Shown piece after piece: positions 666-12,776 of a stretch of 13,205 nt of DNA. The position numbers and the translations under genes were made by a program. The stretch comes from Clostridia bacterium (GTDB lineage Bacteria; Bacillota_A; Clostridia; Oscillospirales; CAG-272). Position 1 is the stretch's first letter. Each line of letters starts with the position of its first letter. The notes beneath the pieces were generated by a model. It made no database searches. It had not been told where the DNA came from and saw nothing but the letters and a program-made list of their open reading frames with translations. Location: contig JAGBGV010000353.1 in assembly GCA_017935805.1 (NCBI GenBank), positions 1 through 13,205 of the forward strand, written 5' to 3'.

Positions 666-790
666 GATTGTCCTCCTTTTCTTAAGTAATAAATGTTTAT
701 ATACAACCGGGATCGCTCCCGAAAGTATGCAAAAATTTACGTTTTACGGTCATTTTCGGGCATAGCTAAAACATACCCAAAAATTGCGTA
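666..790 (-). promoter_or_regulatory. Structured 5' leader of the rpsL operon
   Basis: About 125 transcribed bases separate the predicted start site from the rpsL start codon. Two hairpins are visible on the minus strand. One at 758-778 has arms GGGTATG and TATGCCC (two G-U pairs). One at 708-721 is CGGGA-GCGA-TCCCG, a five-pair stem capped by a GNRA-type GCGA tetraloop. The leader ends in the rpsL ribosome site. Leaders of this kind often mediate ribosomal-protein feedback, but I do not recognise a named motif. Confidence 0.5.
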
Positions 791-797
791 CGCAGAT

Positions 798-826
798 ATT
801 ATAGCATCAGCATACTCATTTGTCAA
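798..826 (-). promoter_or_regulatory. Consensus sigma-A promoter for rpsL-rpsG
   Basis: On the minus strand TTGACA (821-826) and TATAAT (798-803) are separated by exactly 17 bases. Both hexamers match the housekeeping consensus perfectly, as expected for a highly expressed ribosomal operon. The predicted start is near 790. Confidence 0.9.
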
Positions 827-948
827 TAGGAAATGGAAAAGACTTTCTCGGGATAATATAATATTCTCCCACTTGCACAATAAAAAATTCAAAAAATGCT
901 GTTTTATTGGAGTATTTTTTGCACTCCCAACAAAGCAAAAGCTCCCTT

Positions 949-990
949 TATAATATAATGTAGAAAAGCGCATGATTTCACATGGCTTTT
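949..990 (+). promoter_or_regulatory. Weak promoter candidate and leader hairpin of the Rieske oxidoreductase gene
   Basis: Overlapping TATAAT hexamers occur at 949-954 and 954-959, but no good -35 element lies at a suitable distance, so the promoter is tentative. Directly after it is a hairpin: AAAAGC (964-969), one bulged G, CATG (971-974), a six-base loop, CATG (981-984) and GCTTTT (985-990) followed by another T. It would sit near the 5' end of the mRNA and could act as a stabiliser or an early terminator. The rest of 827-1086 is AT-rich and holds no supported gene. Confidence 0.35.
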
Positions 991-1086
991 TGAAAAAATT
1001 ACACCTCAATTTCGCCTCACCCGCAGACAAAAATGCATAATTCCCCCTCTTCTCGGCAATCATATACAAAAAACGGGAGAAGAAAT

Positions 1087-2514
1087 ATGCACGAAATATG
1101 GAGCTTGAGCCGCGAAGCATACCCTCAAGTCGGCGGCAATATAAAATGCGGCGTGGCAGTAGTAGGCGGAGGACTTACGGGAGTGATCCTCGCATACCTG
1201 CTCTCAAAGCGCGGAATGGATGTAGCTCTGTTTGAAGCGAATAAGATCGCATCAGGCAAAAGCGGCCGCAGCACAGCCAAGGTCACCGTGGCTCACGGTT
1301 ACAAATATGCCGAATTACACAGCAATCTTTCTGCGGATGTCGCACGAAAATATGCCGCTGCAAATATGGACGGTCTGCGATTTTTCAGGGACCATCTTGG
1401 CGAGCGCGAGAAAAAGATCATGCTGCTCTATTCCCTCTACGGTCAGCGGCGGCTGATGAAGGAATACTCCGCAATGAGAGAATGTGGAATCCCCTGTCAG
1501 TGGATGGATGCAGCAGAGGTTCCCCTGCCCTTCAAAACAGAGGGCGCCATCAAGTTAACCGATCAGTATGCCATTGATCCTGTCAGGTTTGCCGACAGTC
1601 TTTGCCGACTCGGTCGGTTTAAGGTATACGAAAACAGTCCTGCAGAGGTGGTTGATTCACATCTTCTTGTTTGCGGCGGACACACGATCACAGCGGACTG
1701 CGTTGCGATTTGCACCAATTACCCCACCCATGTTCCCACATCCGCTGCACCCATCAAGCTTTCCCGCAAAACCTCCCTTGCGGTCAAGATGCACAGCGAT
1801 AGCGGATTCTCTATCCCGTTTGGCGTAATGGCATACGGAGTTGACGGCGGGTACGGCTACAGGCACGGCGACGATCCGCGGGAGATCATCATAAGCGGCG
1901 AGACATCCAGAGAAGCGCCTACTCCACTTGCGGAAGAGCGTCTGATACGCGCCGCGTTAGCTATTGCACCGGACGCAAAAATTGTGGACATCTGGACCAA
2001 CAACGACACCTACACCCACGACGGTCTGCCGTACAGCGGTCGTCTGAGCTCAGGAATATGGGTTGCCTGCGGCTACTCTGCCTGGGGAATGACCAACTCC
2101 GCCGCTATGGCAATAGTCGCCGCCGAGCAGATCAGCGGGCACGATCCGTGGTACGCCGACGTGTTCTCGCCCGGACGCAACATTCTCCGCGGTGGGTCAC
2201 GCGAGCTTGCAACTCATATGCAGACAGCCGTCAGCGGCATGGTGAAGCAGATGTCCTCCCCACCACAGGTGTCCCCCGCCGAGATCGAAGCAGGTCACGC
2301 GGCAGTTGTGTCCTCCCGCGGAAAACGTGCAGGTGCATACAGAGATACCGACGGTTCGCTCCATCTGGTAAGCCTCAAATGTCCACACCTCGGATGCGAG
2401 CTTCAGTGGAATCCTGCGGACAAGACCTGGGACTGCCCGTGCCACGGCTCCAGATTTACCTACACAGGCGAGTGTGTATCAAATCCTGCAAACAAAAGTA
2501 TCCGGATTGAGTAG
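1087..2514 (+). CDS. FAD-dependent oxidoreductase with C-terminal Rieske [2Fe-2S] domain (YhfW-like)
   Basis: The 475-residue protein begins with a DAO-type FAD domain. A Rossmann fold runs CGVAVVGGGLTG at 21-32 (GxGxxG dinucleotide loop) to an acidic strand end at Glu50, and the following GKSGRSTAKVT stretch resembles the TTAKVT motif of YhfW/GlyA-oxidase-like proteins. The last 50 residues form a Rieske cluster site: CPHLGC (Cys432, His434, extra Cys437) and CPCHGSRF (Cys450, extra Cys452, His453). Both cluster ligand pairs and the extra disulfide cysteines are present. Electron transfer between FAD and the iron-sulfur cluster is expected; the substrate is unknown. I chose the ATG at 1087 because GGGAGA lies just upstream and the similarity starts there. 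No signal peptide is seen, so it is probably cytoplasmic. It is divergent from rpsL. Confidence 0.88.
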   Translation: MHEIWSLSREAYPQVGGNIKCGVAVVGGGLTGVILAYLLSKRGMDVALFEANKIASGKSGRSTAKVTVAHGYKYAELHSNLSADVARKYAAANMDGLRFFRDHLGEREKKIMLLYSLYGQRRLMKEYSAMRECGIPCQWMDAAEVPLPFKTEGAIKLTDQYAIDPVRFADSLCRLGRFKVYENSPAEVVDSHLLVCGGHTITADCVAICTNYPTHVPTSAAPIKLSRKTSLAVKMHSDSGFSIPFGVMAYGVDGGYGYRHGDDPREIIISGETSREAPTPLAEERLIRAALAIAPDAKIVDIWTNNDTYTHDGLPYSGRLSSGIWVACGYSAWGMTNSAAMAIVAAEQISGHDPWYADVFSPGRNILRGGSRELATHMQTAVSGMVKQMSSPPQVSPAEIEAGHAAVVSSRGKRAGAYRDTDGSLHLVSLKCPHLGCELQWNPADKTWDCPCHGSRFTYTGECVSNPANKSIRIE

Positions 2515-2526
2515 GATAATTACACA

Positions 2527-2555
2527 TTGACTTAATCAAATTATTCTGATACAAT
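2527..2555 (+). promoter_or_regulatory. Sigma-A promoter of the NERD-domain gene
   Basis: TTGACT (2527-2532) and TACAAT (2550-2555) are separated by 17 bases, one mismatch each from consensus. It starts 13 bases after the Rieske gene stop, so the NERD gene is an independent transcription unit. Confidence 0.8.
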
Positions 2556-2593
2556 AGTGGTATAAAATCCCTGCACAATGTGGAGAATATTGC

Positions 2594-3913
2594 ATGAATC
2601 AGAATGAAGAATTATATCAAAATCTAACTGGAGTGGACATAAATAAACAAAAACACTTATGGGACGAGCGAGGCAAAGGATATTATGGTGAATACTGCGT
2701 CTTCAAGGAATTATTAAACAATATTCCTGGTTGCGCCAAATTTCTTATGAACCTAAATGTTCCTGTACAAGAAGGAAAAACCACTGAGATTGATTTATTA
2801 ATGGTCCACGAAACGGGTATATATGTCTTTGAAGTAAAGCATTATAAAGGGACCATATATGGGGATGAAAACGGCCGCATTTGGACACAATATTTCCGCA
2901 CCTCATCAAACAACACTTTCAACAATCCAGTAGCCCAAAACAACTATCATATTTTTGCTCTTGCAAAATTATTTCCCGAAATGCCAATTCACTCTGTTAT
3001 AGTTTTTTCGAATCCAGAATGTGATTTGAGAGTTAATATATCCAGTCCGAGAATCCTTGTAACCAGACTGGATACATTGTGCGAAGATTTATCAAAAAAA
3101 TTCTTATCTGTACATGATTGTTTGTTTGACATTAAACGCATCGATGAAGTATTCAACAATTTAAAAATTTACTCTCCTCTCACAGAAATTACTGTCCAAG
3201 ACTCTAACGATACTATTATTCCCTTTAATAACTATCTGTCCAACATTCGCATTGATGTACAAAACAAAATAAACGATTTACAGAGTCAAGAAGAATTACT
3301 AAAAAAAGGTTATAAAACAAAAATTATAACACATTCAATTGCTTTGCTCGTTGTGATTTTGCTCAGCATAGCGATCTCAGTATTTATATGTACTAAGTAT
3401 ATAGAATACGAAACAAATGAGATGAGCATAAAAATTGATATCGCCGAAAAAGAAATGCAAGAAGCGATTGATACTCTTGAAGAGATGAAACAAAAATTCA
3501 AGCAAGTCAATCCAGTGAAAGATTCATACAGCAAATGGATAGCGGAATATATCGGCATATCCGGAATAAAGCTTGAAATGTCGAAAGACCACCCAAATGT
3601 CGCATTATTCACTTGTAAAATTAAGAATTCAAGCTCTCAATATGGTCTTCAATTGACAAAAGACACCTCTTACATCATTCATTTCACCGACGGAACAATA
3701 AATGAATACCCAATGTTTGGCGAACGGCTTAAATACAGCAGTGATCAAAGAATAGAGGCAAAATCAACGGCAAGTTTGGTTGTTCTGGAAATATTAAATA
3801 TTGATAACATTGAGAACATTGAATATATAAAAATCAACAATATTTCAATATATGACAAAAGCGGAACAATAATTAAAGAAAAGGCTGAAGTGGAATTATA
3901 CGCCCATCCCTAA
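2594..3913 (+). CDS. NERD-domain (nuclease-related) membrane protein
   Basis: The 439-residue protein has an N-terminal NERD domain, about residues 28-180. The endonuclease-like motif is visible: Glu33 (YGEYCVFKEL), Asp67 (EIDLLMVHETGIYVFE), then Glu80-Val-Lys82 followed by HYKG. This D...ExK arrangement is the PD-(D/E)xK active-site pattern. A single hydrophobic segment at about 244-267 is followed by a charged, probably coiled-coil stretch (271-303) and a C-terminal region of about 130 residues resembling an extracellular beta-domain. The ATG is preceded by GGAG. The gene is visibly richer in A and T, and uses more AT-ending codons, than its neighbours, which suggests acquisition. NERD proteins have unclear roles, with DNA processing or phage defence proposed for some. 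It is flanked by its own promoter and terminator, so it stands alone. Confidence 0.8.
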   Translation: MNQNEELYQNLTGVDINKQKHLWDERGKGYYGEYCVFKELLNNIPGCAKFLMNLNVPVQEGKTTEIDLLMVHETGIYVFEVKHYKGTIYGDENGRIWTQYFRTSSNNTFNNPVAQNNYHIFALAKLFPEMPIHSVIVFSNPECDLRVNISSPRILVTRLDTLCEDLSKKFLSVHDCLFDIKRIDEVFNNLKIYSPLTEITVQDSNDTIIPFNNYLSNIRIDVQNKINDLQSQEELLKKGYKTKIITHSIALLVVILLSIAISVFICTKYIEYETNEMSIKIDIAEKEMQEAIDTLEEMKQKFKQVNPVKDSYSKWIAEYIGISGIKLEMSKDHPNVALFTCKIKNSSSQYGLQLTKDTSYIIHFTDGTINEYPMFGERLKYSSDQRIEAKSTASLVVLEILNIDNIENIEYIKINNISIYDKSGTIIKEKAEVELYAHP

Positions 3914-3970: not shown

Positions 3971-4087
3971 CATAGGGTAACTTTCCCCTCTCAACCGTCA
4001 GTTCTGCTGTTTTTTCTCCCACTCAACCGGCGGTATGTGGACTTATACCCCCCAAAAAGCTACAATGATATCGAAAGGAGACCACAT

Positions 4088-4699
4088 ATGGATCAGATAA
4101 AAATTGGATGCTTCATTGCCGAGCGCCGAAAAATGAAAAAGCTCACTCAGATGCAGCTTGCGGAGATGCTGAACATCACCGACAGAGCAATATCCAAGTG
4201 GGAATGCGGCAAGGCAATGCCTGACTCGTCGATAATGCTGGAGCTATGCGGCATACTCGACATAACAGTAAACGATTTATTAAGTGGGGAGGTTGTTACA
4301 GTGGAAAACTACAGCAAGGAAATGGAAAACAAGCTTATTGAAATGGTGAAACAAAAGGAAGAGGCAGACAAAAGGCTTCTGGTTCTTGAGGTGTTCATCG
4401 GCATTACAGTAACGGTAGTTCTTTTTGCCCTGATTTTTGTTGCCGCTTTTGTGGAGATGCAGACCTGGCTGAGAGTTTCTCTCATCGTGTTCGGCTTCGC
4501 TTTGTTCCTCGCAGGTTGCTTCTATGCAGTCCGTATAGAACAGGTTGCGGGATATTACGAATGCGGTCACTGCGGTCACAGGTACGTTCCGACGTACAAG
4601 GCAGTTAACATGGCAATGCACATGGGCAGAACAAGATACATGCGTTGCCCGAGTTGCGGCAAAAGATCTTGGCAGAAAAAAGTCATCAGCAAGGACTGA
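4088..4699 (+). CDS. XRE-family membrane-anchored regulator with C-terminal zinc ribbon
   Basis: The 203-residue protein starts with a Cro/C1-type helix-turn-helix, about residues 5-60 (RKMKKLTQMQLAEMLNIT, then AISKWECGKAMPD). A short charged linker follows, then two hydrophobic segments at roughly 96-120 and 127-147. The C-terminus carries a four-cysteine zinc ribbon, CGHCGHRY and CPSCGK. The layout places the DNA-binding domain and the ribbon on the same, presumably cytoplasmic, face of a membrane hairpin. Such proteins are common and mostly uncharacterised in Clostridia. I chose ATG 4088 because AAAGGAG lies seven bases upstream; the longer in-frame extension has no homology-like content. 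It has its own promoter and a bidirectional terminator, so its target genes are not obvious; autoregulation is an inference. Confidence 0.82.
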   Translation: MDQIKIGCFIAERRKMKKLTQMQLAEMLNITDRAISKWECGKAMPDSSIMLELCGILDITVNDLLSGEVVTVENYSKEMENKLIEMVKQKEEADKRLLVLEVFIGITVTVVLFALIFVAAFVEMQTWLRVSLIVFGFALFLAGCFYAVRIEQVAGYYECGHCGHRYVPTYKAVNMAMHMGRTRYMRCPSCGKRSWQKKVISKD

Positions 4700-4755: not shown

Positions 4756-6553
4756 ATCTGTACCACATGAATACTGTCATGTCGGCTGATCCACGGTTCG
4801 CGTATGCGTAGTAAGGGATAAGGCTGATACGCGCAGGTTCAAGGCTTTCGTCGAGCTCTGAGTAAAGACCTTCGCCCCGTCTTACCTTACGGTATCCGTT
4901 CACGGAAAGCTTCATGCAACCGCAAGTGTCGCAGAATTCTACCGACCAATCGGGGGACTCTGTATTGATCACAAGAGAATGAACATCGCCACCGTTGTCA
5001 ATTCCCTCAGCGCAGTATACAACGGGACCGTACTGTACAGCAGCTCTGCCGCGGTTTGCACGAACTCTGTCGTCAGTGCAGATAAGTACAGGTCTCATCT
5101 CAAACTCTACAGTAATCTCGCCCTCTCCCACAAATACCGCGTAACCCTTATCCATCGTGTATTCGCGGCTTGCAGTAAACTTGTCGCACCAACCGGGCAC
5201 ACGAACTCGAACGGTCTTTGTTCCCTCGGCTGTGATGACTACCTTACCGCTTCTGGGGTAATCCGTCTTCTGCGTTACCTTAATGCCGCCGTCATTAAGA
5301 ACGCTGTCGCCAAACTGGTTCACCCAAACGTCGCCCCCATCCCACAGGTAGAAGTACTGACCCATAGATGAAAGTGTGCGGTTAAGGTTAGGTGGGCAGC
5401 AAGAGCACTCGAACAATGTTGCACGTTTTTTGGTGGTGTGCTTGTTGATCACATCGGAAGGACCTCCGAATTCAAGCACATTCTGATAGAAGAATGCGTC
5501 TCCGGAAAGAGAAAGTCCCGCAATCATGCCGTTATACATCTCGCGCTCGATAATATCGGCGTATTTTGCTTCCAGCTCCATTTTGTTCATTCGGTGGGCA
5601 AAAAGCATCATCGCAATAGACGCGCAAGTCTCGTTATACGCAGTCTCGTTCGGCAGATAGTATCTCTCGCCGAATCTCTCCCCCTGGGGTACTGCACCGA
5701 CGCCGCCTGTTACATACATCTTGCCCGTCACGATATCATCCCAGATGGCGCGGCAGGCTGTTTTCAGTGCTTCGTCACCGGTTTCATTGGCAATATCAGC
5801 CATCGCTGTGTACAAATATCCCGCACGAACAGAGTGTCCCACAGCCTCGTGCTGATCTCTCACCGGTAGCCATGACTGGGTATACTGATCCCTTCCCTCA
5901 GCTTCGATCTCGTTTGCTCCACGCTGGTCAACAAAGAATCTTGCAAGATCAAGCCAATCTTCATTCCCCGTGCAGCGGTACAAACGGTACAGAGCAAGCT
6001 CTATCTCCTGATGTCCCGGAGTGAGGAACTTGGGTTTGATGTCCGCTGTGCCGTCCATAAACACAGATTTGATATATCCCGCATACTTTTCCGCAATGTC
6101 AAGGAAGCGTCTCTTCCCTGTTGCCTCGTAATATGCCACTGCCGCCTCGAACATATGACCCGCACAGTAAAGCTCATGATGACTGCGGTAATCAAATCTT
6201 GCTTCCGGCTCTACTACGGTGAAATATATATTGAAGTAACCGTTCTCGTCCCGGTTTTTTTCGATCTCGTCAATTATGGCTTCAACCTTTGCTTCGAGCT
6301 CCGGATCCGCCTTGCGAGATAAGCAGTACGCCGCACCTTCTATCCATTTCACAACGTCGGAATCCCAGAAAAAGTGAGGCTTCTTTGGCTCCCCCTCTTT
6401 CCAGTCGCAACGAAACGCATCAATTCTGCCGCTTTCAGAAAATCTCTCATAAACCGCCGGAATGGTAACGTCACGGTTAAGATCCTCTTTTGCTTTCCAA
6501 AATCCGCCGGTCAGAGTTATTGCGCGATAGTCGGTTTTTTTACTTGATTTCAT
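4754..6553 (-). CDS. GH127 family glycoside hydrolase, probable beta-L-arabinofuranosidase
   Basis: The 599-residue protein matches the GH127 (HypBA1-like, DUF1680) pattern over its whole length. The (alpha/alpha)6 catalytic part comes first and beta-sandwich modules fill about the last 170 residues. Expected active-site residues can be placed against HypBA1: Glu292 as acid/base (GERFGERYYLPNETAYNETC), Glu308 and Cys310 as zinc ligands (ETC), and Cys385/Cys386 (FECSCCPPN), the first of which is the nucleophile in HypBA1. HHELYC and AGHMFEAA at 125-138 are also family hallmarks. There is no signal peptide, so it likely acts in the cytoplasm on imported arabino-oligosaccharides. The ATG is preceded by GGAGG. 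It has its own promoter and terminator with no transporter or other CAZyme adjacent. Related families such as GH146 share this fold, so substrate linkage is not certain. Confidence 0.9.
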   Translation of the reverse strand: MKSSKKTDYRAITLTGGFWKAKEDLNRDVTIPAVYERFSESGRIDAFRCDWKEGEPKKPHFFWDSDVVKWIEGAAYCLSRKADPELEAKVEAIIDEIEKNRDENGYFNIYFTVVEPEARFDYRSHHELYCAGHMFEAAVAYYEATGKRRFLDIAEKYAGYIKSVFMDGTADIKPKFLTPGHQEIELALYRLYRCTGNEDWLDLARFFVDQRGANEIEAEGRDQYTQSWLPVRDQHEAVGHSVRAGYLYTAMADIANETGDEALKTACRAIWDDIVTGKMYVTGGVGAVPQGERFGERYYLPNETAYNETCASIAMMLFAHRMNKMELEAKYADIIEREMYNGMIAGLSLSGDAFFYQNVLEFGGPSDVINKHTTKKRATLFECSCCPPNLNRTLSSMGQYFYLWDGGDVWVNQFGDSVLNDGGIKVTQKTDYPRSGKVVITAEGTKTVRVRVPGWCDKFTASREYTMDKGYAVFVGEGEITVEFEMRPVLICTDDRVRANRGRAAVQYGPVVYCAEGIDNGGDVHSLVINTESPDWSVEFCDTCGCMKLSVNGYRKVRRGEGLYSELDESLEPARISLIPYYAYANRGSADMTVFMWYR

Positions 6554-6583
6554 ATTGACCTCCGTCAGTACATAGTCATACTC

Positions 6584-6612
6584 ACTATACCAAATCCCGC
6601 CGCGTTTTGCAA
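6584..6612 (-). promoter_or_regulatory. Sigma-A promoter of the GH127 gene
   Basis: On the minus strand TTGCAA (6607-6612) and TATAGT (6584-6589) are separated by 17 bases. The leader of about 23 bases contains only the ribosome site. Confidence 0.75.
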
Positions 6613-6621
6613 TAGAAAAGC

Positions 6622-6667
6622 TAGAAAAAACAAAAAATATCCCACCGATTTTGTCGGCAGGATATTT
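6622..6667 (-). terminator. Terminator at the left end of the MutS-like module
   Basis: On the minus strand AAATATCC (6660-6667 arm) pairs with GGATATTT (6635-6642 arm) over eight perfect pairs, with an inner TCGG/CCGA-type stem. A long T-tail (TTTTTTGTTTTTT) covers 6622-6634. It ends minus-strand transcription from the membrane-protein operon. Confidence 0.88.
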
Positions 6668-6705
6668 GTCATAGCTTTGTCACAAATCTTTTCAGCGTTT
6701 AATAT
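6668..6705. repeat. Direct repeat, left copy (beside terminator)
   Basis: TCATAGCTTTGTCACAAAT (6669-6687), an extra CTTT, then TCAGCGT and TTAATAT. The same elements occur at 11134-11167 with one substitution and two small gaps. The core TTTGTCACAAA is an odd palindrome. The repeat abuts the 6622-6667 terminator. On the minus strand it forms the last part of the 3' UTR. Confidence 0.85.
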
Positions 6706-6740
6706 TGTTCTTCACCAAGTTCTTCACAAGATATGCCCTA
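6699..6740 (-). pseudogene. Relic of a second MutS-like C-terminus
   Basis: Read in the frame of the 174-aa gene, the bases past its TAG stop encode GISCEELGEEQY and a TAA. The intact MutS-like gene ends NKYGISCEGLIGK. At DNA level the stretch around CTTCACAAGATATGCC (6722-6737) matches 7337-7352 exactly and continues with two mismatches over the next ten bases. The TAT (Tyr) codon of the intact copy corresponds to the TAG that now ends the membrane protein gene. The simplest reading is the tail of a lost MutS-like paralogue. Confidence 0.7.
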
Positions 6741-7262
6741 TTTGCTCTCATATTTTCCAGTAATTTCTCTTCGTGATTTTTGTCTTCTTTTTCCACCCAT
6801 TATATATCCTATCGCCATTGTGGGTATGAAAGGAACAGTTTGTATAAGCATGGAAATAAACATATAGTTGCCATACTCTTCTACCAAAGTACTTAAACCC
6901 GTATTCTCATGGGCCCCGGATATTATCATTGCCAACAAGCTAATATTTGTTGCGGCCCCAAAAGTTCTGTATCTAAAGATCACTGTAACAATGCAATATG
7001 TTAACCATGCAAGGCACATAGAAACTACGTTTTTCATATCGATAAGTTTGCTACTTGAAATGTTAGCCTTATAACCGTCCCTCAAGCACATTAGAAAAAG
7101 TGAAATCATTGAGGCAAGCAAACATACTATACACAACGCAATTGATTCTGCAGGGTTATCAAACAAAAATTTTATTGGTATGTTAGTTACAATCATAATA
7201 ACCAACCCAATAAATGCTGCACTGAAAACATTTAATAAGTTTTTATAATATAGGTTTTTCAT
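6738..7262 (-). CDS. Four-helix membrane protein downstream of the MutS-like gene
   Basis: The 174-residue protein has about four membrane segments, near 10-30, 40-60, 78-96 and 132-156. A short basic loop (LRDGYKANISSSK) separates the two halves and the tail is strongly basic (GGKRRQKSRR). I recognise no family. The ATG is preceded by GGAGG. It lies 58 bases after the MutS-like stop with no promoter or terminator between, so it is probably the last gene of that operon. Its stop codon falls inside a relic of a MutS-like C-terminus, so the natural 3' end may have been altered. The overall layout (two helices, polar loop, two helices) resembles the 198-aa protein upstream, but sequence similarity is too weak to call them paralogues. 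Confidence 0.75.
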   Translation of the reverse strand: MKNLYYKNLLNVFSAAFIGLVIMIVTNIPIKFLFDNPAESIALCIVCLLASMISLFLMCLRDGYKANISSSKLIDMKNVVSMCLAWLTYCIVTVIFRYRTFGAATNISLLAMIISGAHENTGLSTLVEEYGNYMFISMLIQTVPFIPTMAIGYIMGGKRRQKSRREITGKYESK

Positions 7263-7320
7263 TTATCCTCCTAGCTTTTGATTATTTGCTAATGAATATG
7301 CAAGAAATAAATATATTACT

Positions 7321-8883
7321 TTATTTGCCGATAAGACCTTCACAAGATATGCCATATTTGTTCGCGATATTCTTTGCGTAACTCTTTCCGTCAGGAGAAC
7401 GTCGATTGATTTTGTAAGTACATTCCATTGTTCCCTCAGCCACTTCAGCAACCAGATGATCTATCTTAGATTTCGAGTTTTCGTCAGAATTTATACCCTC
7501 CGCATCTTCGGACAAAGCGTGGAAATGAGTGGTGTAGATTCCTCTTGCCCCAATATAACTTATAGCGCGCAAAACCTCCCCCGACAGGGTAACGGATTCA
7601 AGCGGGTCGGTAGACGAGAACAATTCGTCAAGCAAAATCAAAGAATACTCATCAACCTCCGCAAACATACTCTGTATCTTTTTGCATTCCTCAACCAGTC
7701 TGCCGTCTTGATTGATAGAGCGATACCCCGGAAGTTCAATAAATATGCCGCTTACAGGGCTAATTTCAAGCTTACTTGCGGGCACGGGCAGTCCGACTTG
7801 CGCCATAATCTGAATGAGTCCAACAGCGCACATATATACAGATTTACCGCCGTTATTTGCGCCTGTGAGAAGAAAGATGCGACCGTTTTCATCAAATGTT
7901 AAATCGTTTTTTACAACCTCTTTTTTATCCTTTGACAGCGCCATATTAATCGCAAGCACAGGATTATACAAGTTGACGGCACGAAAAGCTTTTTCTTCCA
8001 TTGGTCGATAAACCGGCTTAGATATATTCAACTTCAGCTTTCGCATGTTTGATATTATCTTAGTGCCACTCGCAATAAACTTCATATCGGGTAATGCAGC
8101 AATAAGAAAATCAATATGATCCTTCAAATACTTATCAAGCTCCGGCTCCCACTGCTTTATCTCGCGTTTGAATATCTTATTAAGCGCAGAATACAACGCA
8201 CCGTTTAAGATTTCATAATCCCACTCACCGCATACTCTCTTGGGAGCAACAAGTGGAGCTATTGAAAGAAGAGGATCTCCCTCAATCACATCTGCTCGGA
8301 GTATTCTGTCTATAAGTGCACCCGATTTAACATATCTGTCATTCACCGACAGTATTCCGGACTCATATGGAGCAAACGATGCGTCAAAGTTGAACCCTAT
8401 AGAGATGCTTTTGACATTGCTGATTTTTGAAAGAAGTTTTGCTGTTCCGTCTTTCAGTTTTGCATATTCATCTGAATTCTTTATAAATGATACCTCATTG
8501 AACCACTCTATGTAGTCGCCGGAAGTAAACTTACTATTGTTTTCATCAAAGAAAGCTGCCAATTTGTCAATAACTTCGAAATATAGCTCAAGCTCTTTTA
8601 CGGAATAAAGACCGCGTTCACTATCTGTCACGCTATTCTGCAGTCTGATCATCTCATAGATATGATCAAGCATCTTTATAGCGTCATTCAGCAACTTGTC
8701 AAGACCGTTAATTGAGGCAGTGTCTACAAACATCTTGCTTCTGCGTTCCAAAACTTTTTCGTCAACAGTCAAATAGTCAAGAATATTATATCCGCGATAA
8801 TACAGTATTGTTTCAGCACCAAGTATTTTCAGTATATCCGGAGTGTATTTTACATCATTTGTTTTCTCGACCAAGCTTCTCAT
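7321..8883 (-). CDS. Truncated MutS-like ABC ATPase (no mismatch-recognition or Smr domain)
   Basis: The 520-residue protein carries a MutS-family ATPase domain in its C-terminal 200 residues. Walker A is TGANNGGKS (340-348, versus TGPNMGGKS in MutS), Walker B is LILLDE (415-420), a D-loop-like SSTDP follows at 423-427, and the His switch is TTHFH (451-455). PDGKSYAKNIANKYGIS at 497-513 matches the family's SYGIxVA-type C-terminal helix. Residues 1-320 are mostly helical and correspond to a core/lever region. There is no N-terminal mismatch-binding domain with Phe-x-Glu and no C-terminal Smr nuclease, so it is neither MutS1 nor MutS2. The ATG is preceded by GGGAGG. It lies 13 bases after a small membrane protein gene, in an operon otherwise composed of membrane proteins. 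Function unknown; an ATP-driven clamp acting with the membrane partners is an inference. Confidence 0.85.
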   Translation of the reverse strand: MRSLVEKTNDVKYTPDILKILGAETILYYRGYNILDYLTVDEKVLERRSKMFVDTASINGLDKLLNDAIKMLDHIYEMIRLQNSVTDSERGLYSVKELELYFEVIDKLAAFFDENNSKFTSGDYIEWFNEVSFIKNSDEYAKLKDGTAKLLSKISNVKSISIGFNFDASFAPYESGILSVNDRYVKSGALIDRILRADVIEGDPLLSIAPLVAPKRVCGEWDYEILNGALYSALNKIFKREIKQWEPELDKYLKDHIDFLIAALPDMKFIASGTKIISNMRKLKLNISKPVYRPMEEKAFRAVNLYNPVLAINMALSKDKKEVVKNDLTFDENGRIFLLTGANNGGKSVYMCAVGLIQIMAQVGLPVPASKLEISPVSGIFIELPGYRSINQDGRLVEECKKIQSMFAEVDEYSLILLDELFSSTDPLESVTLSGEVLRAISYIGARGIYTTHFHALSEDAEGINSDENSKSKIDHLVAEVAEGTMECTYKINRRSPDGKSYAKNIANKYGISCEGLIGK

Positions 8884-8896
8884 AGGTTACCTCCCG

Positions 8897-9202
8897 TTAA
8901 ATGAAGTTGTTGATTAAAAGAAATGTTAGCACACCAATAGAAAACTGTGTCCCCGCTATTATTATAAAAACGATTCTTGAATAATAGCATTTCCAGAAAT
9001 TATAGACGAACACCGTCCATGCAACACCGCCAATAAAAGCAAATATGCTCCAGATAATATATGCACCCTTAAAGAAAAAGCCCGCAAACCACCATATAAA
9101 GCCGAGAAACAGCATATATACGACAAGCCGCAGGCGTGGAATCTGAATATGCTGCTCACCCCTCGGAGCAATAATTTCCATCATTTGCTCAAAAGTTTTC
9201 AT
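8897..9202 (-). CDS. Small membrane protein of the MutS-like operon
   Basis: The 101-residue protein has an amphipathic, charged N-terminus (MKTFEQMMEIIAPRGEQHIQIPRLR) and about three hydrophobic segments (27-44, 48-68, 76-98). No family is recognised. The start is ATG 9202, which overlaps the TGA stop of the 198-aa gene as ATGA; this implies translational coupling. A TTG twelve bases upstream is a possible but less likely start. The stop is 13 bases before the MutS-like start, so the three genes form a tight operon. Confidence 0.78.
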   Translation of the reverse strand: MKTFEQMMEIIAPRGEQHIQIPRLRLVVYMLFLGFIWWFAGFFFKGAYIIWSIFAFIGGVAWTVFVYNFWKCYYSRIVFIIIAGTQFSIGVLTFLLINNFI

Positions 9203-9795
9203 AAATCCCACCAAGTCATTTCTTTTTCTTCGGTATATCCTTTTGTTAAATACTTCGGGCGGTTTCTATTCCATATAAGAATAACTATTAATACCAGGAT
9301 ATAGTAAAACACCATAAACATCGGTATTGATACAACATGCCCGCCCGGACTCATTGTAACCTTACCGAGTATTCTTCTTTCCATACCGCCGCCGAACACG
9401 AATGATGCAGGAATATAGCAGATGCAATAGTACAGAAGGTCACTTTTCATATGCTTTTTGCAGTAGTACGAGGCTTCCTTAAAGAGAGAAAAATGTTCTT
9501 TGGAATGAAGCTGAACATCGTATTTTCTCTCAGTATCGCGGTGAAGATACATAACGGCGAATATTGCGTAAAACACAACAACATAGCAAATATTCATTGC
9601 GGTAAATACCGGCATATATGAGTCTGCCACAACATAGTTTTCTCCGAAAAGCCATATGAGAATATCAGTAGCCAACGGCATTGCAAAAACGGTTGGAATA
9701 TACCCAACGGCAAATGCGACTATCTGAGCGAGGATATATGCCGTTATGAACTCTCCGAAATTGGAAAAGGATATTTTGCTTTTTTGCTTTTTCAA
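9199..9795 (-). CDS. First gene of the MutS-like operon: four-helix membrane protein
   Basis: The 198-residue protein has about four hydrophobic segments, near 15-40, 62-86, 118-138 and 155-175. A polar segment rich in His, Lys and Asp (LHRDTERKYDVQLHSKEH) lies between the two halves. The C-terminus is charged and ends MTWWDL. No family is recognised. The start codon is TTG at 9793-9795, justified by GAGGAGG seven to eight bases upstream and by the absence of an alternative in-frame start nearby. Its stop overlaps the next gene's ATG. It is the promoter-proximal gene of the operon, divergent from the XRE-TPR gene. Confidence 0.78.
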   Translation of the reverse strand: MKKQKSKISFSNFGEFITAYILAQIVAFAVGYIPTVFAMPLATDILIWLFGENYVVADSYMPVFTAMNICYVVVFYAIFAVMYLHRDTERKYDVQLHSKEHFSLFKEASYYCKKHMKSDLLYYCICYIPASFVFGGGMERRILGKVTMSPGGHVVSIPMFMVFYYILVLIVILIWNRNRPKYLTKGYTEEKEMTWWDL

Positions 9796-9818
9796 GTCGC
9801 CACCTCCTCACTGTATTT

Positions 9819-9847
9819 ATTATATACCATCTGCAAAGATCAGTCTA
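9819..9847 (-). promoter_or_regulatory. Promoter of the membrane/MutS-like operon
   Basis: On the minus strand TAGACT (9842-9847, four of six consensus) and TATAAT (9819-9824) are separated by 17 bases. The predicted leader is only about 17 bases and consists mainly of the ribosome site. Confidence 0.65.
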
Positions 9848-9865
9848 TATTCAAAAAAGCGACTA

Positions 9866-9883
9866 AAACTAACCAAATAGTTT
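9866..9883. promoter_or_regulatory. Probable XRE operator in the divergent promoter region
   Basis: A perfect inverted repeat, AAACTA-ACCAAA-TAGTTT, with imperfect extension to CT...AG on each side. It lies between the -35 regions of the two divergent promoters, where one bound dimer could affect both. Its size and placement fit a Cro/C1-type site. The adjacent XRE-TPR protein is the obvious candidate ligand (inference). Confidence 0.65.
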
Positions 9884-9914
9884 AGCCAAAGAGAGTGCTT
9901 TTTTGCAAAATATA

Positions 9915-9923
9915 TGTTATAAT
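9915..9923 (+). promoter_or_regulatory. Extended -10 promoter of the XRE-TPR gene
   Basis: TGTTATAAT (9915-9923) is a perfect -10 hexamer with the TGn extension. No good -35 is present at 17 bases (GTGCTT), which the extension could compensate for. The start site is near 9930; the leader is about 22 bases and holds GTAGGAGG. Confidence 0.65.
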
Positions 9924-9951
9924 TAATAATAACTCTTGTAGGAGGAAACCT

Positions 9952-11100
9952 ATGACCATCGGAAAACGCATCAAGGAGCTGCGCCATAAAAACGGCGTTA
10001 CACAAGATAAGTTAGCAGAGTATCTTGGCGTAACATATCAGGCAGTATCAAAATGGGAACGTGACGTAACTTCCCCTGACGTGACTATGCTCGTTCCTAT
10101 CGCTACATTCTTTGGCATTGATCTAAACGAGTTGTTTGATTTTGACGGTACCCGCGAGCAGACGGACGTAGAAGCATACATAAGAGAAAGTAATTCATAC
10201 CCCGGCGAGGATAATCTGCGAAACGTTCTTGCAGTATGGAGACGCGCCGCCGCTAAATATCCGCGCAACTTCACCTGCCTCAGTAAGCTTGCCTGGGCAG
10301 TCTATATAAATGCGCTGTACTCAGATCCCGCCTTCGGAGGTGCAACTGATGCAACATTTGAAGAAGCGGAAACTATATGCAAACGGATAATAGATGACTG
10401 TACCGACGACCGCATAAGAACCTTTGCACTGTCAACTATGGTCAAAATATATTCGGAGCCATCATCCCCTCTTTGCAATGAAGCTGAAGCTTTGAGAATA
10501 GCTGATATCCTTCCGGGAATACAAAACACCAGCCAGTATTTACGTCGATATGCCCTGCGCAACAATTATGAGAAGAGAGAGATTGAGCGGCGCAAATGCA
10601 CGGTCATGTTTATGCATTATCTGATTGAAAATCTGTCTCTTTGGGGGTACGGAGATGCACAAACACAAATTTGCTCAATCGATGCAGTTATAGCCTTGAT
10701 AAAAGCGATACTGTCTGATGGGAATTATTTGAATTTCAATGATTATATGGCAGGCGCACATATTAACCGCGCAGTTTTGCTTGTTAAACTCGGTAAGCTT
10801 GACGAAGCTATGGATGACTTGCATGAGGCAAGACGTTGGTCAAAAGAATACGAGAAGTTACCCGAGGGCAAGCTGACTCATTCATCTCCTCTTGTGAAGG
10901 GTGTGGAGATCAACTTTGTTCATCCCCGAAGCAACGCAACTCCTGCCGAGTTCATTCTCCGTGACCTTGAAAGAGATTGCTTCTCTCCACTGTTTAAGCG
11001 AGATGACTACAAAACTCTTATCGGCGAGATCAGACAAGAGGTGGGAAAAGAACATGCAAGTGAAGAATGCTATAGGGATACTCCAAGGGTATATAAATAA
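9952..11100 (+). CDS. XRE-family regulator with TPR-like helical body
   Basis: The 382-residue protein starts with a Cro/C1 helix-turn-helix, about residues 4-60 (IGKRIKELRHKNGVTQDKLAEYLGVTYQAVSKWE), ending with the common GIDLNELF. The remainder is all-helical with TPR-like repeats, clearest near 90-130 (LRNVLAVWRRAAAKYPRNF) and 270-300 (AHINRAVLLVKLGKLDEAMDDLHEARR). This layout is common in Clostridia regulators that sense a peptide or protein ligand. I chose ATG 9952 because AGGAGG sits seven bases upstream; the longer in-frame extension overlaps the promoter. It is divergent from the MutS-like operon and shares a palindromic operator with it, so it likely controls both that operon and itself. 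Confidence 0.85.
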   Translation: MTIGKRIKELRHKNGVTQDKLAEYLGVTYQAVSKWERDVTSPDVTMLVPIATFFGIDLNELFDFDGTREQTDVEAYIRESNSYPGEDNLRNVLAVWRRAAAKYPRNFTCLSKLAWAVYINALYSDPAFGGATDATFEEAETICKRIIDDCTDDRIRTFALSTMVKIYSEPSSPLCNEAEALRIADILPGIQNTSQYLRRYALRNNYEKREIERRKCTVMFMHYLIENLSLWGYGDAQTQICSIDAVIALIKAILSDGNYLNFNDYMAGAHINRAVLLVKLGKLDEAMDDLHEARRWSKEYEKLPEGKLTHSSPLVKGVEINFVHPRSNATPAEFILRDLERDCFSPLFKRDDYKTLIGEIRQEVGKEHASEECYRDTPRVYK

Positions 11101-11132
11101 AAAACGCACCTTCTCTCAGGAAGATGCGTTTT
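11095..11132. terminator. Bidirectional terminator between the XRE-TPR gene and rny
   Basis: AAAACGCA (11101-11108) pairs with TGCGTTTT (11125-11132), plus an inner CTTC/GAAG stem across one mismatch. It starts right after the XRE-TPR stop. On the minus strand the T-tail is stronger (TTTTTTATTTA), so it also ends rny transcription. Confidence 0.88.
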
Positions 11133-11133
11133 C

Positions 11134-11167
11134 TCATAGCATTGTCACAAATTCAGCGTATTAATAT
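11134..11167. repeat. Direct repeat, right copy (beside terminator)
   Basis: TCATAGCATTGTCACAAAT (11134-11152), then TCAGCGT, A, TTAATAT. It matches the left copy at 6669-6705 in order, orientation and position relative to a terminator. On the minus strand it lies in the 3' UTR of rny, just before the terminator. The remainder of the gap to rny (11168-11231) shows only a short GCC-GCAA-GGC hairpin. Confidence 0.85.
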
Positions 11168-11231
11168 CTTATCAAATATGTTATTTGGTTTATATTAAGC
11201 CGCAAGGCATTGTTTTCTCTGTAACTCTATG

Positions 11232-12776
11232 TTATTTTGCGTAGTCGATTGCTCGGCTCTCGCGAATGATGTGGACTTTGATCTGTCCGGGGTATTCGAG
11301 GTCGTTTTCGATCTTCTTAACGATATCTCGTGCGATGATAGTCATCTGGTCATCATCAACAACATCGGGCTTAACCATGATTCTGATCTCACGTCCCGCC
11401 TGAATAGCGTAGGACTTTTCAACGCCGTCAAATTCGTTTGCGATCTCTTCAAGCTTGGTAAGTCTCTTGATGTAGTTTTCCAGATTTTCACGTCTTGCAC
11501 CGGGACGGGCTGCGGAAATTGCGTCTGCCGCCTGGACAATAAGAGCTGTGATGGACTGTGCTTCCACGTCGCCGTGGTGAGCTTCTATTGCGTTAATAAC
11601 TTCCTTGGATTCTTTATACTTGCGTGCAACCTCAACACCGAGCTGAACGTGTGAGCCTTCAACTTCCTGTGTGAGTGATTTACCAACGTCATGGAGAAGA
11701 CCTGCGCGCTTTGCGAGAGTGCTGTCTACGCCCATTTCGTCTGCGATGATACCGGCGAGAAGTGCAACCTCAATGGAGTGAGCAAGCACGTTCTGTCCGT
11801 TGCTGGTTCTGTACTTGAGTCTGCCGAGGAGCTTGACCATTTCGGGGTTGATACCGTGGATACCAACATCGTATGTTGCTCTCTCACCCGCCTGCTTGAT
11901 AGTTGTTTCAACTTCGCGGCGTGCCTTTTCAACAGTTTCTTCAATTCTTGTGGGGTGGATTCGTCCGTCGCTGATGAGCTTTTCAAGCGCAAGTCTTGCA
12001 ACCTCGCGGCGAACAGGGTCAAAGCTGGATACTGTAATTGCTTCAGGTGTATCGTCAATGATAAGGTCAACACCGGTGAGAGTCTCAATAGTTCTGATAT
12101 TGCGTCCCTCGCGTCCGATGATCCTACCCTTCATTTCCTCGCTGGGAAGAGGAACAACGGAAACGGTGATCTCAGATACATGGTCTGCGGCACATCTCTG
12201 TACTGCAAGTGCGATGATCTCGCGTGCCTTTTCGTCTGCTTCCTCCTTGAACTGCGCTTCAAGCTCAGTGATCTTCATTGCCTGCTCATGCTTGATCTCA
12301 CTCTCAAGCTTTGCGATAAGAGACTGTCTTGCCTCATCCGCAGTCATGCCGGATATCTTCTGGAGTAATTCGAACTGCTCTGACTTGATCTTCTCGATCT
12401 CAGCTTTCAGCTCGTCAGTTTCCTTAATTTTCTTGTTTAATGTTTCGTCCTTTTTCTCAAGTGCTTCGGTCTTACGGTCAAGTGTTTCTTCCTTTGTCTG
12501 TACACGGCGTTCCTGACGTGTCAGCTCGTTACGTCTTTCCTTGAGTTCAAGCTCGAACTCGTTTTTGGTCTGGAGAATTTCTTCTTTTGCTTCCAGCAGA
12601 GCTTCCTTTTTCTTGGTCTCCGCTGCTTTTATTCCGTCCTCGAGAATTCGTCTTGCCTGCTGTTCAGCGTCACCAATGGTCTTCTCTGCGGACTTTTTGC
12701 GATATATTATTCCGATGGCAATGCCTACTATCAGGCAAGCAACACCGGATATAACAGCTGCTAAAATTGGGCCCAT
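11232..12776 (-). CDS. rny: Ribonuclease Y
   Basis: The 514-residue protein has the full RNase Y architecture. An N-terminal membrane anchor (3-24) is followed by a long charged coiled coil (about 30-190), a KH domain with the GxxG loop IIGREGRN (219-226), and an HD hydrolase domain (His333, LLHDVGK with His362-Asp363, HHGD at 400-403). Rny is the membrane-tethered endonuclease that starts mRNA decay in Bacillus and relatives. Length and motifs are typical. The ATG is preceded by AAAGGAGGTG. It is monocistronic here, with a consensus-like promoter and a bidirectional terminator. Confidence 0.97.

Follow-up and report, generated by a model that had tools for sequence, protein, structure and literature searches.

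MutS is an ABC-class ATPase, and MutS proteins are textbook DNA-repair clamps. PMC10897456 describes a relative, MutS2, as an ABC ATPase that splits stalled ribosomes in B. subtilis and is brought to collided ribosomes by its recruitment domains (KOW and SMR), and PMC9164220 reports a link between adenosylcobalamin enzymes and MutS-like proteins. Here we analyse a 13,205-nucleotide stretch of DNA from a Clostridia bacterium (contig JAGBGV010000353.1, assembly GCA_017935805.1), which we call the window, and in it the gene for a MutS-like ATPase that follows the gene for a small membrane protein, TM100. We find that TM100 and the MutS-like ATPase are a real, conserved gene pair. A stripped-down MutS relative beside a tiny membrane protein in several gut-bacterial lineages suggests a machine, so far undescribed, that uses ATP to work at the membrane and not on mismatched DNA; no description of the pair was found in the open-licence PMC literature. 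An earlier note on this DNA had started from the premise that MutS2 acts on DNA only, which, given the ribosome splitting described in PMC10897456, is outdated. The two genes, separated by 13 nt, are as follows.

9202-8897, minus strand: TM100, a small three-helix membrane protein, the conserved partner of the ATPase
8883-7321, minus strand: MutS-like ATPase, 520 amino acids, Pfam PF00488 at E 1.2e-23

The MutS-like ATPase and its membrane partner

Pfam finds in the ATPase the MutS_V domain and no further significant domain. The predicted model (predicted local distance difference test score, pLDDT, 85.7) has the MutS core/lever and ATPase fold, its best structural matches being MutS and MutS2, and the alignment begins only at about residue 264 of E. 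coli MutS. Neither the mismatch-recognition domain I nor the connector domain II was found, whether by Pfam or in the alignment of the model to E. coli MutS. There is no Pfam match to the Smr domain either, the protein ending about 173 amino acids past the Walker A lysine, and the Pfam listing holds no KOW match, no search aimed at KOW having been made. Sequence and model together point to a MutS core/lever and ATPase from which mismatch recognition has been lost. Across 35 aligned rows the Walker A (GxNxGGK) and Walker B (DE) motifs are invariant or nearly so, while the ST signature position reads GR in most rows, SR in four and GC or GS in two. Among NCBIfam models, the MutS2 model TIGR01069 reaches 114.8 bits against a cut-off of 400 bits, and the second match, the KamC model NF052383 (E 3.5e-25), reaches 88.8 bits against a cut-off of 300 bits.

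How are such ATPases distributed? A family-alignment scan of genome contigs gave 593 candidate stretches, at least 552 of them confirmed, of which the best 80 were taken as loci. In a first tree (FastTree, 146 rows), whose deep joins are unsure because long branches meet there, 64 of these 80 form one large clade, which we call clade B; outside it stand the window, L001-L009, L013, L014/L044, L020/L031 and L061/L067. A second tree that includes later loci places L088 and L095-L097 inside clade B and L100, L107, L113, L114, L117, L118, L119 and L156 outside it. Genomes may carry both clade-B and non-clade-B ATPases.

The pairing was counted at 23 loci outside clade B that had been reached through the ATPase: the window itself, 16 from the set of 80, and L100, L107, L113, L114, L117 and L118. 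We left out L119, where the ATPase gene start lies off the contig, and L156, to which the TM100 profile had led. The ATPase gene has a TM100-type gene as its immediate neighbour in 19 of the 23 loci (20/24 if L156 is included), namely the window, L001-L009, L020, L031, L061, L067, L100, L107, L113, L114 and L118, with L107 carrying two copies downstream of the ATPase gene and the copy in L006 having been hidden by an over-long gene start. The pairing spans about eleven divergent lineages, the 23 loci not being all independent, and it is kept at 28-49% ATPase identity to the window's protein. In clade B, by contrast, none of the 64 loci has a TM100 profile match near the ATPase gene (best E 0.073, on the other strand), with 400 nt or more of upstream sequence available in 61 of them; L024 and L079 carry some other small membrane open reading frame (ORF) upstream. 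A purely mechanical criterion, a same-strand ORF of 70-160 amino acids with at least two hydrophobic stretches that ends between -160 and +80 nt from the gene start, picks out 17 of the 23 loci (18/24 with L156), against 2/64 in clade B and 5/423 among other genes of at least 300 amino acids. Thus the tie between a MutS-type ATPase and a membrane protein that the earlier note had proposed is borne out for TM100, and a tabulation of neighbours around the MutS-like homologues shows that, as regards TM100, they are not random.

TM100-type proteins are only 10-25% identical to the window's TM100. The model of the latter (pLDDT 86.5) has helices at residues 2-11, 23-42, 46-70 and 76-100, and alignments A2 and A4 together with the model indicate a common plan: a proline, mostly as PR, ahead of helix 1, then helices 1 and 2, a stretch of aromatic and basic residues that frequently ends in YS, and a third helix. 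The best-conserved positions are P22 and Y74. By phmmer, the window's TM100 matches the neighbours in L001 and L002 at E 2.4e-5 and 5.9e-5, and when a group is left out of the profile, its members are still recovered at E 4e-17 to 2.6e-5 and outrank every background ORF in that run, the window's own protein excepted. The strongest background ORF, that of L157, reached E 3.6e-6 in one run; L157 had itself been retrieved with this profile. A 14-row profile finds 15 places in 18 genomes, all of them beside a MutS-like gene and two of them previously not known. Across 398 genomes of the phylum it gives eight matches, six strong and two weak with in-frame stops. All six strong matches adjoin a MutS-like gene, so that TM100, for its part, was not seen to be conserved without the ATPase; five had built the profile, and the new one is G431, whose ATPase gene is cut off by the contig end. 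A comparison of the TM100 profile with another membrane protein of L005/L006 gave a probability of 15%, and we claim no homology.

Some further observations concern individual loci. In L005 (7702-7938) the TM100-type gene is interrupted by an in-frame stop after 78 codons, at a point where its close relative in L006 reads on. A c-di-AMP riboswitch lies on the opposite strand upstream of the TM100-ATPase unit in L061 (5129-5261) and L067 (829-964). L061 also carries, about 2.4 kb from the unit, a tandem MutS-like pair (697-3767) with 55-58 bits to the KamC model, below its cut-off; adjacent pairs like it occur in G001, G002, G007 and G008. Plasmid (117) and phage (30) records matched the ATPase, all at less than 60% identity. 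Overlapping tandem MutS-like genes stand in plasmid operons behind a fluoride riboswitch in L138 (3177-8324; Klebsiella pneumoniae) and L139 (3888-6754; Burkholderia cenocepacia), with ion-transport genes near both and crcB and eno in L138; a fluoride-response role of this MutS-like pair looks unexplained.

What the pair may do

What could a MutS-type ATPase do beside a membrane protein? The reading that we favour, tentatively and with somewhat less than even confidence, is that TM100 and the ATPase are a two-component unit in which a membrane-recruited ABC ATPase remodels proteins or complexes, with TM100 as its dock. After the loss of mismatch recognition, the ATPase would have become a protein- or complex-remodelling enzyme, presumably acting as a MutS2-like dimer. 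By analogy with MutS2 on ribosomes, TM100 would recruit or control it at the membrane, replacing KOW and SMR as recruiter. We infer that the docking elements are the PR before helix 1 and the W-x-x-YYS between helices 2 and 3, which would be cytosolic if the N-terminus is inside. Driven by ATP binding and hydrolysis, the core/lever clamp would close on a client, probably other than DNA, at the inner membrane face, and open again. To this unit the window's lineage would have added two more membrane proteins and a divergent XRE-TPR regulator, whose genes probably have an accessory or control role.

Several findings weigh against this reading. The window's own TM100 is a divergent member of its family: with its own group omitted it is recovered at E 0.015, below two background ORFs at about 0.001, and profiles made from one group alone overlook some partners or place them among background ORFs. 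Four loci (L013, L014, L044 and L117) have no TM100 partner, and of these L013 is, among the matches listed, the closest relative with known context (55% identity). Clade B manages without a membrane partner, and the existence of so large a clade implies that this kind of ATPase can exist without TM100. Finally, residues 1-300 of the ATPases are mildly acidic (mean net charge -3.0 over 29 proteins), which says little on DNA binding since MutS2 proteins range from -13 to +5.

We consider it unlikely that the pair is instead a DNA tether, with the ATPase clamping DNA and TM100 holding it at the membrane in the service of segregation, uptake or repair. In its favour, the predicted model folds like MutS, a DNA clamp; however, the mismatch and connector domains are absent, only five basic columns reach at least 85% conservation ahead of the ATPase domain (no matching count was made for MutS), and by eye no DNA-processing neighbour recurs. 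For DNA uptake, which the earlier note had also raised, no support turned up, no test aimed at uptake having been made.

It seems rather improbable that the pair serves transport or mechanotransmission, the ATPase driving a conformational change through TM100 in the manner of an ABC transporter or FtsEX but with a separate origin. That MutS belongs to the ABC class would fit, as would the position of P22 and Y74, the best-conserved residues of TM100, on the cytosolic side if the N-terminus is inside. Yet TM100 has three helices only, and no recurring substrate-binding gene was seen. We are just as doubtful of the broader proposition that a MutS-class ABC ATPase drives a membrane protein directly, which would amount to a second origin of ATP-driven membrane coupling in the ABC superfamily, apart from ABC transporters.

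Similarly small is the weight we give to a reactivase of a membrane enzyme, in which the ATPase would expel a damaged cofactor as KamB/KamC do for lysine 5,6-aminomutase. Here the argument comes from KamC as the second NCBIfam match and from the similar size of the two proteins, while the score falls below the KamC cut-off and no cofactor enzyme recurs by eye beside the gene; nor do the window's ORFs include, by eye, a KamB/KamC pair or an aminomutase.

It is very unlikely that the module is a cassette for anti-phage defence or a toxin-antitoxin system, regulated by the XRE protein. The window's kind of ATPase is indeed rare and patchily distributed: of 394 genomes of its order, none but the centre genome matched at E 1e-105, and the same held at E 1e-100 for the 295 genomes of an overlapping draw. 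The XRE regulator and the repeats at the module's edges would also suit such a cassette. On the other hand, in PADLOC 2023 the ATPase and the three membrane proteins match no family at E 1 and the regulator matches through its HTH region only, viral contigs hold no relative of the ATPase, and the neighbours are ordinary by eye; the defence role put forward in the earlier note thus gains nothing from these searches. That these are unrelated genes which happen to share an operon is scarcely credible as a whole and is contradicted for TM100, whose pairing is kept at 28-49% ATPase identity and far above the control rate; it may yet hold for the membrane proteins TM198 and TM174, which are near-orphans, and for the regulator.

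The surrounding genes, promoter region and repeats

By eye, the window encodes rpsL, an FAD oxidoreductase, a family-127-like glycoside hydrolase and rny (RNase Y), and Pfam identifies an XRE protein at 4085-4699. A NERD-domain protein (Pfam E 1.1e-25), with a hydrophobic segment by eye, lies at 2594-3913. The module is placed between the glycoside hydrolase gene and rny and consists of a leftward operon, TM198-TM100-MutS-like-TM174, and a divergent XRE-TPR gene. Its remaining features are listed here.

9795-9199, minus strand: TM198, TTG start, membrane protein by hydropathy, lineage-specific, in the same operon as TM100 by ATGA overlap
7262-6738, minus strand: TM174, membrane protein by hydropathy, a near-orphan that follows the ATPase gene
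9952..11100, plus strand: XRE-TPR regulator, HTH_3 at E 2.4e-14 and weak TPR (Pfam), divergent from the operon
9796..9951, no strand: divergent promoter region with short inverted repeats, a possible operator
6665..6705, no strand: left repeat copy, about 40 nt, adjoining the operon's leftward terminator-like hairpin
11130..11167, no strand: right repeat copy, adjoining the leftward terminator-like hairpin at the rny end
6635..6667, minus strand: terminator-like hairpin ending the leftward operon, 14 pairs and then a T-rich tail
11099..11134, minus strand: terminator-like hairpin at the 3' end of rny, 15 pairs with a T-rich tail, beginning at the XRE stop codon of the other strand

The layout given in the earlier note, two small membrane genes joined by an ATGA overlap, a MutS-like gene, a third membrane gene and a divergent XRE-TPR gene, is accurate. 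TM174 starts 58 nt after the MutS-like gene. For the regulator the mechanical ORF begins at GTG 9895; we prefer the ATG at 9952, for which inspection by eye shows a good ribosome site. None of TM198, TM100 and TM174 has a Pfam match below E 0.05.

TM100 and the ATPase are the core unit, and TM198, TM174 and the regulator may be local additions, because TM198 and TM174 are near-orphans and XRE-TPR regulators are common. Homologues of TM198 were found at 85-99% identity only, and those of TM174 are one copy at 94% and one at 39%. Comparisons of TM198 with the other membrane proteins gave probabilities of 0.1-9.5%; TM174 against a membrane protein of L005/L006 gave an hhalign E of 0.0042 and a probability of 8%, and homology is not claimed. 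An XRE-TPR-type gene directly follows the ATPase gene in L013, L014 and L044, the latter two forming one clade, but most of 12 genomes have many such genes (from 0 to 51 matches per genome at E 1e-12), so the adjacency is weak evidence and we do not take the regulator as a conserved part. In L044 (7896-12183) the ATPase and XRE-TPR genes stand directly before spoIIAA-, spoIIAB- and sigF-like genes (by eye), and in L013 (6841-7824), which has no TM100, a divergent XRE protein with about six hydrophobic stretches adjoins the ATPase gene.

The promoter region holds inverted repeats at 9916-9933 (11 of 12) and with arms at 9852-9860/9897-9905, and by eye a further pair, CTAAAACTA at 9863-9871 and TAGTTTAG at 9878-9885. 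Promoter-like consensus sites do not exceed shuffled sequence (18 found, 14.3 expected, in 6550-11300).

The repeats at the outer edges are real: their cores (6665-6687 and 11130-11152) are identical at 21 of 23 positions, extend to about 40 nt with gaps, and give a local score of 48 against a maximum of 30 in 1000 shuffles. As a cassette boundary, which is how the earlier note had read them, they fare less well, since both abut leftward terminator-like hairpins, one at the operon's end and one at the end of rny, the latter outside the module; for the same reason they read most simply as a repeated 3'-end element. Terminator-like hairpins in general are about as common in shuffled sequence (4 found, 3.5 expected), and the two at the repeats have the longest stems of the four. 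The exact repeat core is absent from 158 loci and from viral contigs, and local alignment to the later loci reaches at most 29, against 48 for the window pair. Nor do the repeats prove a mobile cassette: besides their abutting hairpins, Pfam finds no recombinase or transposase among the five module genes, and none of six relatives could be identified as an empty site. The nearest rny gene is only 73% identical; a ymdB-like gene (by eye) follows rny in four of the six (L159, L161, L162 and L164) and other genes follow it in L160 and L163, whereas in the window the module stands there. It is possible that the module was inserted next to rny. Of the single self-contained cassette that had been proposed, then, the TM100-ATPase pair stands, while TM198 and TM174 with their few homologues, a regulator of a common kind and repeats at terminator-like hairpins do not support the whole.

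Relation to known MutS-type systems

The clade-B MutS-like proteins of Clostridia are of the same family as the window's ATPase, with similar length and roughly 33-39% identity to it; they differ in being without a TM100-type partner in 64 loci, and their genes often adjoin an Lrp/AsnC regulator and an aminotransferase. With MutS1 the window's ATPase shares the ATPase domain V with its Walker A and B motifs, but it is without the mismatch-recognition and connector domains and its ST signature is replaced. With MutS2 the predicted model shares a core/lever and ATPase without domains I and II; the protein differs from MutS2 in having no detected Smr domain, in being too short for KOW plus Smr, in scoring far below 400 bits, in its GR instead of the ST signature, and in its membrane partner gene. 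KamC is likewise a MutS ATPase and has nearly the same length (508 for the model, 520 amino acids here), whereas the window's protein is single, has a membrane partner and scores below the 300-bit cut-off.

The pair carries a warning, that mismatch repair does not follow from the presence of a MutS domain in a clostridial gene, and it offers a minimal two-gene system in which to ask what the job of a MutS clamp at the membrane would be. MutS2 and the KamB/KamC type indicate that the MutS engine is usable for other work; if our favoured reading is true, a dedicated membrane partner conserved beside a MutS-like ATPase would mean that this engine has also been taken to the membrane.

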